From Sediminibacterium sp. Gen4 (GTDB taxonomy: Bacteria > Bacteroidota > Bacteroidia > Chitinophagales > Chitinophagaceae): a stretch of 64,000 nucleotides of DNA. A program made the translations under genes and the position numbers. The notes below the pieces were generated by a model. It was not told the DNA's origin. It made no database searches and was given only the letters and a program-made list of their open reading frames with translations. Below, piece after piece: positions 13,414 to 15,437 of this stretch; the first letter of the stretch is position 1; each line of letters opens with the position of its first letter. The stretch is taken from the NCBI GenBank assembly GCA_013391385.1, contig JACBFI010000002.1:62001-126000 (forward strand), in the 5' to 3' direction.

Positions 13414-13478
13414 AGCAGGGATTTGGGAATAAGTTACGAATTATATGCACGGAATTTCCTTGTAGGGGTGATAGAAAC

Positions 13479-13506
13479 AAAAAAGTCCCAGCTTTATAGC
13501 TGAGAC
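13479..13506 (-). terminator. Third copy of the tRNA-Asp terminator
   Basis: The hairpin at 13485-13506 (stem of 9 pairs with one wobble) is followed on the minus strand by TTTTTTG. It is nearly identical to the hairpins at 13863-13884 and 14231-14253. It belongs to the distal tRNA fragment at 13513-13548; no GIY-YIG gene follows it. Confidence 0.75.
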
Positions 13507-13512
13507 TTTCTG

Positions 13513-13548
13513 CGGACCGCCCCCACAGTATTGTGGGGGGAACCCGCG
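13513..13548 (-). pseudogene. tRNA-Asp 3' fragment, distal copy, with inserted hairpin
   Basis: On the minus strand it reads CGCGGGTTC (tRNA T arm), then an inserted 20-nt hairpin (13520-13539, CCCCCACA / TGTGGGGG), then CGGTCCG of the acceptor 3' strand and the same CAGAAAGTC flank as the intact tRNA. The hairpin replaces about ten bases of the T arm. It cannot make a tRNA. Confidence 0.7.
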
Positions 13549-13582
13549 TCCAAAATGCTGTGAAGATGATAATTCAATTTTT

Positions 13583-13852
13583 TTATTGAAACCGATTGAT
13601 CATATTTTTTGGATGTACAATTAGGGCTTGTATCCTTGTAATCGTAGCTTTTTTCAAATTTTTCTCTCTAATCAATGCTTCTCTCTTAGACCCAATTTCT
13701 TCAACATATACCAATTTCCAAGGTGTTTTTGTAGACGTATACTGGGACTCTTTATTATTATGTTGTGCAAGTCTTCTCAAAGAAGCTTCGGTAAACCCCT
13801 TATAAAAACTCCCATCAGCCTGACTTTGTATGATATAAACATAGTATGCCAT
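13583..13852 (-). CDS. Small GIY-YIG endonuclease, copy A
   Basis: 89 residues from ATG 13852. Single-domain GIY-YIG nuclease: YYVYIIQS (3-10) and FYKGFTE (16-22) are the GIY and YIG elements, then RRLAQHN (the family Arg) and LVYVEEIGSKREALIREKNLKK (metal-binding Glu region). It is about 77% identical by eye to copy B at 13951-14220. An in-frame extension upstream (MGTGSSPVRS...) is only translation of the tRNA fragment and terminator and is left out. Its ATG lies 4 bases after a terminator T-run, with no ribosome binding site seen, so how it is expressed is unclear. Confidence 0.88.
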   Translation of the reverse strand: MAYYVYIIQSQADGSFYKGFTEASLRRLAQHNNKESQYTSTKTPWKLVYVEEIGSKREALIREKNLKKATITRIQALIVHPKNMINRFQ

Positions 13853-13855
13853 AAA

Positions 13856-13884
13856 CAAAAAAGTCCCAGCTTTATAGCTGAGAC
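13856..13884 (-). terminator. Second copy of the tRNA-Asp terminator
   Basis: Hairpin 13863-13884 followed on the minus strand by TTTTTTG, directly before GIY-YIG gene A. Same sequence as the distal copy at 13485-13506, and one stem base different from that of the intact tRNA. Confidence 0.75.
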
Positions 13885-13890
13885 TTTCTG

Positions 13891-13946
13891 CGGACCGGAC
13901 GGGACTCGAACCCGTCCCCACAATACTGTGGGGATGACAGGGCGGC
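13891..13946 (-). pseudogene. tRNA-Asp 3' half, middle copy, with inserted hairpin
   Basis: The minus strand reads GCCGCCCTGTCA (anticodon arm, GTC), then a 20-nt hairpin insert (13915-13934, TCCCCACA / TGTGGGGA), then an intact T arm and acceptor 3' strand. The insert replaces the rest of the anticodon stem and the variable region. The 5' half (acceptor 5' strand and D arm) is missing. GIY-YIG gene B ends 4 bases upstream of it. Confidence 0.8.
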
Positions 13947-13950
13947 TATT

Positions 13951-14220
13951 TTATTTAAATTGGTCTACAATATTTTTGGGGTGCAGAATTAAAGCTTGAA
14001 TTCTTTCTTTGGAAGCCTTCTTCAAATTTTTTTCACGAATCAAAGCCTCTTTCTTGGAAGACATTTCTTCTAGATACACTAAACTCCAAGGTGTTTTCGC
14101 AGATGTGTATTGCGATTCCTTATTATTATGCTGTGCCAATCTTTGCTTGGGTGTTTCAGTATAACCTTTATAAAAGCTCCCATCAACCTGGCTCTGTATG
14201 ATATAAACATAATATGCCAT
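13951..14220 (-). CDS. Small GIY-YIG endonuclease, copy B
   Basis: 89 residues from ATG 14220. Same architecture as copy A: YYVYIIQS (GIY), FYKGYTE (YIG), QRLAQHN (Arg) and LVYLEEMSSKKEALIREKNLKK (Glu region), with no extra DNA-binding domain. It is sandwiched between the intact tRNA-Asp terminator (its ATG follows the T-run by 4 bases) and the displaced tRNA 3' half at 13891-13946. Family members cleave DNA; this subgroup is widespread in Bacteroidota without a settled function. The setting suggests a selfish or homing role at the tRNA locus, which is inference. Confidence 0.88.
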   Translation of the reverse strand: MAYYVYIIQSQVDGSFYKGYTETPKQRLAQHNNKESQYTSAKTPWSLVYLEEMSSKKEALIREKNLKKASKERIQALILHPKNIVDQFK

Positions 14221-14224
14221 AAAC

Positions 14225-14253
14225 AAAAAAGTCTCAGCTTTTGTAGCTGAGAC
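14225..14253 (-). terminator. Intrinsic terminator of tRNA-Asp
   Basis: Stem of 9 pairs (14231-14239 with 14245-14253), five-base loop, then TTTTTTG on the minus strand, 7 bases after the tRNA 3' end. Confidence 0.85.
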
Positions 14254-14259
14254 TTTCTG

Positions 14260-14333
14260 CGGACCGGACGGGACTCGAACCCGCGACCTCCGCCGTGACA
14301 GGGCGGCATTCTAACCAACTGAACTACCGATCC
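14260..14333 (-). tRNA. tRNA-Asp (GTC)
   Basis: 74 nt. Acceptor stem GGATCGG with CCGGTCC (one G-T pair) and discriminator G. D arm contains TAGTTCAGTTGGTTAGA. Anticodon loop CTGTCAC gives GTC. T arm is GCGGGTTCGAGTCCCGT. CCA is not encoded. A terminator follows at once. Two broken copies of the 3' part lie downstream, each after a GIY-YIG gene. Confidence 0.97.
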
Positions 14334-14459: not shown

Positions 14460-15437
14460 ATGCCCCAATACCCTAACAGACAATTCCTTGATTTTGAAAA
14501 GCCTATCAAAGAATTGTACGAACAAATTGAGGACACCAAGAAACTGGCTGAGAAGAATCCTAAAATAGATTATACCGCTACCATTCGTCAACTGGAGGAA
14601 TCCATTCTCGAGAAGAGAAAGGAGATCACCCAGCACCTGACCCCCTGGCAGCGTGTTCAATTAAGTCGCCATCCAGACCGTCCTTATACCCTCAAGTACA
14701 TCGATAAAATGTGCACAGACTTTGTTGAGTTGCATGGTGATCGCAATTTCAAAGATGATAAAGCGATGGTGGGTGGTTTTGCTCAGCTCGAAGGCGAAAC
14801 CGTGATGTTCATCGGTCAGCAAAAAGGAACCAATACCAAATTGCGTCAATTGAGGAATTTTGGTATGGCCAACCCAGAAGGCTACCGCAAAGCATTACGC
14901 TTGATGCGTCTGGCAGAAAAATTCGGTAAACCAATCGTTTGTCTGGTCGATACACCCGGTGCCTATCCCGGACTAGAAGCCGAGGAACGTGGACAAGGAG
15001 AAGCCATCGCCAGAAATATCTACGAGATGATCCGTTTGAAAGTACCCGTGATTGTTGTGATCATTGGTGAAGGCGCTTCCGGCGGTGCTTTAGGTATTGG
15101 TGTGGGTGATAAAGTATTGATGATGGAGAATACCTGGTATACGGTAATTTCTCCTGAAAGTTGTAGTTCGATTCTTTGGAGAAGCTGGGAGAAAAAAGAA
15201 GTGGCGGCAGAACAGTTACGTCTAACCGCAACCGACATGAAAGGTTTTGGCTTAGTGGATGAGATCGTTCATGAACCATTAGGTGGCGCTCACTGGGATT
15301 ATACAGAAGCAGCTGATATCCTGAAATCATATATCCTTAAAGCACTCAAAGAAGTAAAAGATAAAAACCCCGAACAACGTATCAATGATCGTATTGAGAA
15401 ATATGGTAAGATGGGATTCTGGGAAGAAGCAGTTTAG
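14460..15437 (+). CDS. accA: Acetyl-CoA carboxylase carboxyltransferase subunit alpha
   Basis: 325 residues, usual length. It transfers carboxyl from biotin to acetyl-CoA in the first step of fatty acid synthesis, working with AccD (not in this window). Family blocks: [16 protein letters not shown] near the start, [54 protein letters not shown] and the oxyanion-forming [18 protein letters not shown], then the [14 protein letters not shown] motif typical of AccA. It is monocistronic between tRNA-Asp (opposite strand) and the dapA region. Confidence 0.98.

Follow-up and report, generated by a model that had tools for sequence, protein, structure and literature searches.

What kind of genetic unit is formed by a tRNA gene and two small nuclease genes standing in tandem behind it, each followed by a piece of the same tRNA? 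The question is raised by the tRNA-Asp locus of Sediminibacterium sp. Gen4 in the window, by which we mean the whole 64,000-nucleotide stretch of DNA that was analyzed. A first-pass annotation of this DNA had proposed a minimal tRNA-targeting mobile or homing module that depends on a GIY-YIG nuclease and was inserted twice. In the present study, that reading was followed up at the locus itself, in the rest of the genome, in the genus, and in wider sets of loci from the family and phylum.

Results

The tRNA-Asp locus and its nuclease genes

On the minus strand, from 14333 to 13475, the order is tRNA-Asp, terminator, gene B, remnant, terminator, gene A, remnant, and terminator (Table 1), which is the order given by the first-pass annotation. 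ARAGORN calls a single tRNA in the whole window, tRNA-Asp(GTC), and neither remnant is called; the two open reading frames are both 89 aa long. A 45-nt repeat composed of the tRNA 3' end and the terminator starts at 13475, 13853, and 14222, and its spacing of 378 and 369 nt is that reported previously. Remnant 1 holds the palindrome TCCCCACAGTATTGTGGGGA, with an 8-bp stem, in place of the bases between the anticodon loop and the T arm, the left tRNA part stopping at anticodon+3 and the right part beginning at +16. In remnant 2, as judged by eye, a similar palindrome has taken over the T loop together with part of the T stem. Over their 18-nt cores, the two palindromes are exact reverse complements of each other. 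Rfam matches of the remnants were all below gathering scores, giving no known RNA family for them, and those at the locus included no intron family that would indicate a group I intron; the tRNA-Asp gene is uninterrupted. Its letters are identical to those of tRNA-Asp in most relatives whose site is empty. The terminator that follows it was probably brought along by the element. At the Ser-TGA locus of the same genome, the terminator after the intact tRNA likewise probably came with the element because it differs from the one after the remnant.

Table 1. Features of the tRNA-Asp locus in the window
Feature	Position	Strand	Basis or remark
Intact tRNA-Asp(GTC), putative target gene, presumably regenerated	14259..14333	minus	Sequence and ARAGORN
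Terminator hairpin between tRNA-Asp and gene B	14221..14258	minus	Sequence, repeat comparison
GIY-YIG nuclease gene B, 89 aa	13951..14220 (including stop)	minus	ORF, PF01541, purifying selection
tRNA-Asp remnant 1	13890..13946	minus	Anticodon-side bases; palindrome at 13934-13915; 13914-13890 comprise the T arm and the acceptor 3' strand
Terminator copy preceding gene A	13853..13889	minus	Sequence, repeat
GIY-YIG nuclease gene A, 89 aa	13583..13852 (including stop)	minus	ORF, PF01541, selection, tree
tRNA-Asp remnant 2	13512..13547	minus	T-arm start, then palindrome (~13540-13520), then acceptor 3' end; by eye
Last terminator copy	13475..13511	minus	100% identical to 13853-13889
Neighbor gene, which we take to be that of the acetyl-CoA carboxylase alpha subunit (accA)	14460..15437	plus	Synteny anchor for empty sites

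Both proteins match PF01541 (E 9.2e-18 for B and 2.1e-15 for A), which places them in the GIY-YIG superfamily. They are identical at 68 of 89 residues (76%, close to the earlier estimate of about 77%) and their genes at 198 of 267 nt. Conservation is high at Y6, Y17, G19, R27, H31, and E63, each present in 153 to 159 of 159 proteins (Y6 in 153, Y17, R27, and E63 in 157 each, G19 in 158), and the window pair gives a pS of 0.77, at which synonymous sites are saturated, and a pN of 0.13; the nuclease gene is under strong purifying selection. Its closest relatives of known structure, as far as sequence can indicate, are the UPF0213 proteins (PDB 1zg2 and 1ywl) and SLX1, the latter being reported to be a DNA enzyme. 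Searches of PHROGs and NCBIfam with the nuclease gave no match. A phage origin was rejected, given that the 14 matching phage records, at 35-40% identity, include no close kin; a role as a defense system was also rejected, the best PADLOC match being DndH at E 0.0094 for one window protein and none being found for the other.

Small GIY-YIG genes in the same genome and the genus

The 3.52-Mb assembly of the same genome contains 11 PF01541 matches, of which nine are small stand-alone genes, and all nine adjoin a tRNA or belong to an array that starts with one. Their apparent targets are tRNA-Asp (two), CAT-anticodon tRNAs (two), Arg, Ser-TGA, Val (two, in one array), and Ser-GCT. The other two matches are 608- and 402-aa frames with no tRNA near, and the 402-aa protein (L011) represents a longer GIY-YIG protein that recurs in many genomes of the genus, mostly at 430-463 aa.

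Two layouts were recognized among the 22 genus loci read. Layout A consists of the intact tRNA, a terminator, the gene, and a remnant that usually lacks the 5' acceptor strand and at some loci, such as L106, is nearly full length. Layout B is its mirror image, in which a remnant without the 3' acceptor strand is followed by the gene and then the intact tRNA, as at L004 and L009 of the same genome; at 11 of the 29 downstream tRNAs, the stop codon of the gene falls within the tRNA and ends 10 or 23 nt into it. An integrase-like frame was noticed by eye past the tRNA at L004, outside the unit. In the units read by eye no second gene recurs, and the earlier statement that no integrase is visible holds for them.

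By our reading, small genes are present in 14 of 61 genus genomes, with up to nine per genome, and the remaining genomes carry long PF01541 proteins, fragments of those, or none. Neither tRNA nor remnant was seen at L020 and L042, and at L048 the tRNA lies ~300 bp off; these look like other, unlinked small GIY-YIG genes, and L042 and L048 are on long branches of the nuclease tree. ORF-less remnant arrays were found at L018 and L041. In the same genome as the window there are also palindrome-bearing tRNA remnants at which no adjoining nuclease gene was seen (e.g., L115, L120, L123, L325, and L331), which are probable relics of lost elements. An Arg remnant there (L003, ~1750-2720) bears, as judged by eye, three palindromes, one of them split by an insertion-sequence-like stretch.

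Linkage to tRNA genes in the family and phylum

A profile (A1) was made from 22 proteins, taken from mostly tRNA-linked loci of the genus. Matches to it occur in 103 of the 147 genomes examined in the family and in 128 of the 198 in the phylum; part of the matches were checked for a tRNA, and the element is possibly common. The best-listed places were taken, and L006, L007, L146, and L084 were dropped as overlaps; 174 gene copies were found in 137 loci of one family. A same-strand tRNA lies within ~260 bp of 124 of these copies and a remnant accompanies 140, such that tRNA fragments do stand beside homologs elsewhere; 157 of the 174 have one or the other on the same strand within ~260 bp, a linkage that applies to the A1-profile family and not to all small GIY-YIG genes. 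The tRNA is on the opposite strand at one copy, and 17 copies have neither tRNA nor remnant. Both an intact tRNA and a remnant are present beside 107 of the 174 copies, making the layout seen in the window more than a matter of chance. At 19 control PF01541 loci, the fetched DNA contained no tRNA.

In the phylum, an intact same-strand tRNA was found at 25 of 27 loci of a first set, the other two being at rnpB, and at 16 of 20 loci of a second set, where remnants (three) and rnpB (one) were recognized by eye. A protein-only search of named genomes with a profile of the Asp lineage gave 68 loci, which partly repeat genomes used before (at least L234, L235, L237, L245, L253, L256, and L265); 38 had tRNA-Asp, seven had another tRNA only, and 23 were without an intact tRNA, 17 of these showing Asp-like marks. 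By record title, the hosts include Sediminibacterium, Ferruginibacter, Pedobacter, Niastella, and Solitalea. A contig titled Chloroflexi (L291) shows, at a tRNA-Val(GAC) with encoded CCA, the arrangement of layout A together with a swapped anticodon arm, which represents either possible spread beyond Bacteroidota or a binning error.

Two kinds of unusual neighbor were observed. In three genomes of one genus (L230, L231, and L302), an A1-profile GIY-YIG gene lies directly 5' of rnpB, identified by RF00010 at the first two and by eye at the third, between the sides of an inverted repeat of ~18-19 nt, both sides of which co-vary between L230 and L302. Other folded-RNA genes may also be targets, to judge from these loci. 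At L098, L141, L177, L004, and L143, the tRNAs labeled Met(CAT) by ARAGORN have the anticodon arm CTGACTCATAATCAG and resemble the Ile CAT tRNA, which we presume them to be; they would be a distinct target.

Empty sites and inferred movement between hosts

The accA-tRNA-Asp neighborhood was sought in the 61 genus genomes and matched in 47, and the best 30 loci of the 47 were examined. The tRNA was visible at 27, of which three are occupied (G000, G059, and G006), one has a decayed gene start (G043), 20 are empty with the 3' flank visible, and three have contigs that end at the tRNA. The arrangement is therefore not fixed among relatives, and occupied and empty alleles exist at one site, as in homing elements. 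At the empty sites, the marks of the remnant occur solely within the intact tRNA, and filled and empty sites do not differ in the letters of the intact tRNA, the alterations being confined to the remnant. When G006 is compared with an empty relative, homology halts at tRNA base 38 and, past a stretch of 292 nt, restarts 4 nt ahead of the tRNA; in a like comparison of G036, homology restarts at tRNA base 13 and runs 155 nt beyond the tRNA at 78% identity. These joins contain a long target duplication, and comparison indicates that part of the tRNA is duplicated on insertion, with one copy intact and the other present as the remnant.

A single clade for the Asp elements of the genus was rejected (p-AU 2e-6 with four rows and 0.004 with three rows), which suggests that these elements have moved between hosts.

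Nuclease lineages and tRNA identity

A tree was made of 132 nucleases, with 132 of the 137 loci each represented by a single protein of 70 aa or longer, and 121 of them were labeled by the adjacent tRNA, after L047, L088, L094, and L183 had been relabeled by hand as Lys and L009 as Ser(GCT). On this tree, the amino acid of the adjacent tRNA requires 19 changes against a minimum of 76 and a mean of 84 in 200 shuffles, where the short alignment (86 columns) and the 61 of 129 inner branches left open weaken single branches more than this label test. The isoacceptor requires 29 changes (shuffle minimum 83), and the amino acid with the Ile-like CAT tRNAs split off requires 19 (minimum 78). Comparison thus indicates that nuclease lineages are tied to particular tRNAs. 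The host genome requires 122 changes, much like its shuffles (minimum 116, mean 120), and so copies within one genome are not kin. The host genus, with 94 changes, lies below all 200 shuffles (minimum 97, mean 101), a faint signal that counts against pure host independence.

Isoacceptor clustering would also be expected if these were old resident genes, linked to tRNAs at orthologous loci and passed on by vertical descent with frequent loss and local tandem duplication, in which case no homing would be involved. The faint genus signal and the sister relationship of genes A and B would fit such a history, which nevertheless appears very improbable to us because the Asp elements of the genus do not form one clade, small genes occur in so few of its genomes, and most of the readable tRNA-Asp sites are clearly empty.

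Hairpins in the remnants and palindromes elsewhere

A usable intact tRNA was available at 120 of the 137 loci, and BLAST found a remnant at 101 of them. Hairpins with tRNA sequence on both sides occur at 66 of the 120 loci, 115 hairpins in total; by the test used, the other 54 loci have none. Counted from the anticodon, 48 of the 115 coincide exactly with the anticodon arm (26/44), 31 run from 37 to ~49, namely the 3' half of the anticodon arm up to the T arm, 12 span 26 to 35, 11 are in the D arm, seven in the T arm, and six elsewhere. Comparison with the intact tRNAs thus shows that one acceptor strand is usually missing from a remnant and that a hairpin has often taken the place of a part of the tRNA, mostly the anticodon arm or its 3' half. 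Most hairpins (84 of 115) start with TCC and end with GGA, and some swapped arms, as seen by eye at Arg-TCT, Val, and Lys, retain the anticodon-loop letters of the tRNA. The whole-arm hairpin loci labeled Met (L098, L141, and L177) all have the Ile-like CAT tRNA.

On 63 tree rows, hairpin position class requires 13 changes on the nuclease tree (minimum 27 in 500 free shuffles) and hairpin arm sequence 18 (minimum 32). When labels were shuffled within isoacceptors with the CAT tRNAs split, the minima were 14 for position and 20 for arm sequence, and none of 1000 shuffles reached the observed values; layout requires 11 changes against a minimum of 12, reached by none of 500 such shuffles. For isoacceptors taken singly the test is weak, and the observed value was reached by 58 of 1000 shuffles for Arg-TCT, 137 of 1000 for Ala position, 12 of 1000 for Asp arm sequence, and all 1000 for Val position and for Asp position. 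Among the Arg-TCT loci, three with whole-arm TCCCGA hairpins are in one part of the tree and four with D-arm CCTGCC hairpins in another. Within isoacceptors, hairpin and nuclease lineage therefore tend, to a modest degree, to be associated.

Palindromes of the same kinds occur at other places in the genome that contains the window as well, with 27 and 43 copies as against three and one for the reversed patterns, and nine of 30 inspected copies were in tRNA-like sequence by BLAST. The number of TCCCGA palindromes in the 61 genomes does not follow that of the nuclease genes, whose counts were entered by hand (Spearman 0.18, p 0.16), and genome-wide mobilization of palindromes by the nuclease was rejected for the genus on that account.

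This last result would suit a scheme in which the nuclease gene is a passenger, and host recombination or an unlinked transposase moves the palindromes and duplicates the tRNA segments. Like palindromes at a distance from tRNAs and in genomes that lack small GIY-YIG genes, as well as ORF-less remnants (L018, L041, L115, L120, and L123), agree with it. A passenger, however, would hardly account for hairpin position and arm sequence that go with nuclease lineage within isoacceptors, or for strong purifying selection with retention of the motif residues, and no second gene that could act in its stead recurs in the units read by eye; we regard the scheme as unlikely.

No more plausible, in our estimation, is an action on RNA, by which the nuclease would be a tRNA-specific ribonuclease, either a toxin or a regulator, and the hairpin-swapped pseudo-tRNA an uncleavable decoy or control RNA beside its target. 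The specificity by tRNA, the preference for the anticodon arm, and the location of gene and remnant on the strand of the tRNA are what such a role would predict. The nearest solved relatives are nevertheless the UPF0213 proteins and SLX1, of which SLX1 is reported to act on DNA, some lineages have the hairpin in the D or T arm, and the arrays, long target duplications, and movement between hosts are typical of a mobile element.

Arrays and the number of insertions in the window

Gene copies form head-to-tail arrays of three to seven units, with five at L303 and seven at L304. Among neighboring pairs of equal length, 15 of 17 are 93-100% identical in nucleotide sequence, at a spacing of 326-529 bp, and the window pair (74%) and that of L181 (67%) are the older ones. 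The Asp tree joins genes A and B as a sister pair (99/92), which leaves the earlier proposal of two independent insertions without support; we judged it less likely than one insertion with old array growth because the two genes are sisters, though their synonymous sites are saturated. At L002, L008, L062, L066, and L068, contigs stop inside arrays or right at the tRNA 3' end, and these assembly breaks may hide further units.

Discussion

The unit at the tRNA-Asp locus is probably a minimal selfish mobile element, mostly of 330-400 bp, whose nuclease would break one particular tRNA gene and which would be copied into the break by repair. Its sole gene is that of an 80-90 aa Slx1/UPF0213-like GIY-YIG nuclease, which we infer to be the working agent, and comparison of genomes indicates that its sites occur empty, single, or arrayed. 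The empty sites in relatives and the remnants beside homologs elsewhere support the part of the first-pass annotation that saw a tRNA-targeting module; two independent insertions were not supported, and the annotation missed the palindromes, the tie between nuclease lineage and tRNA, the mirror layout, and the spread in the phylum.

In this mechanism, the nuclease would break an unoccupied tRNA gene close to the position that the hairpin marks, and repair would copy the element from a donor, with the 5' and 3' halves of the tRNA serving as portable homology arms, which could work across species because tRNAs are so conserved. Layouts A and B would be the two outcomes open to such repair. The regenerated intact tRNA would spare the host, and the hairpin might disarm the remnant as a tRNA and perhaps also as a target. 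If the regenerated tRNA were cut again, further units would be added, giving head-to-tail arrays with one intact tRNA. A break followed by gene conversion through the tRNA halves would explain both layouts, the native outer flanks, the regenerated tRNA, and the arrays. Its main weak points are that it explains neither the first entry of the hairpin nor the escape of the carrier's intact tRNA, and that the palindromes are present at other places in the same genome too. Because occupied and empty sites share the same tRNA letters, any target site within the tRNA would be open to cutting in the carrier as well. The three rnpB loci of one genus, the 17 of 174 unlinked copies, and the 54 of 120 hairpin-less loci also count against it.

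A bolder and rather doubtful variant is an exchange of hairpins, in which the Slx1-like nuclease recognizes tRNA arms extruded from the gene as hairpins and removes one at its base, and a cognate palindrome replaces it. The element would then end in the palindrome, and both the sequence of the palindrome and the tRNA part that it replaces would depend on the nuclease lineage. If this is true, both the class of mobile element and the DNA rearrangement would be new, and seating at other folded-RNA genes such as rnpB would be possible.

Returning to break and repair as the favored mechanism, the element resembles several known systems in part. Free-standing GIY-YIG homing endonuclease genes are likewise small, tied to a site, and patchy, with empty sites in relatives, but the present element regenerates its target, leaves a partial hairpin-bearing copy, encodes little beyond the catalytic domain, and has tRNA-keyed lineages and arrays. 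Integrative elements that target tRNA genes through an integrase also leave an intact tRNA on one side and a displaced piece on the other, whereas the unit described here is ~350 bp long, lacks an integrase, often has a hairpin swapped into the displaced piece, and occurs in two mirror layouts. REP palindromes, which are associated with the RAYT transposase, a Y1 HUH enzyme, share with it the match between palindrome kinds and lineages of a nuclease-type protein and the presence of ORF-less copies. The single gene of the unit is, in contrast, GIY-YIG, no Y1 HUH transposase being found in it, the unit is seated in tRNA genes, and palindrome number does not track gene number. The UPF0213 proteins and SLX1 are alike in the sequence of the catalytic domain, but the nuclease of the element, at 80-90 aa, stands in another genomic setting and is too short for the C-terminal region that SLX1 carries. 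Penelope-like elements and group I introns also use GIY-YIG for mobility; unlike them, the element has no reverse transcriptase, and the tRNA is uninterrupted, with no intron family at the window locus.

No description of tRNA-linked GIY-YIG units was found in the literature searched, including passages of PMC1564403; preprints and most subscription papers were outside this search, which makes it weak evidence of absence. The unit appears to be a minimal mobile element of an undescribed kind. If this reading is true, a catalytic domain of ~85 residues is sufficient for a mobile element that is directed at a single tRNA gene, leaves that tRNA functional, and brings along near-universal homology arms of its own. 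Some of the unnamed small GIY-YIG genes in Bacteroidota would be accounted for, as would some false tRNA calls, and the element would provide a natural series of target-sorted nucleases for studying the evolution of GIY-YIG specificity.

As a minor observation on annotation, ARAGORN calls the hairpin-bearing remnants at L088, L094, and L046 tRNA-Stop, tRNA-Leu(TAA), or tRNA-???, and such remnants are likely a source of false tRNA annotation.
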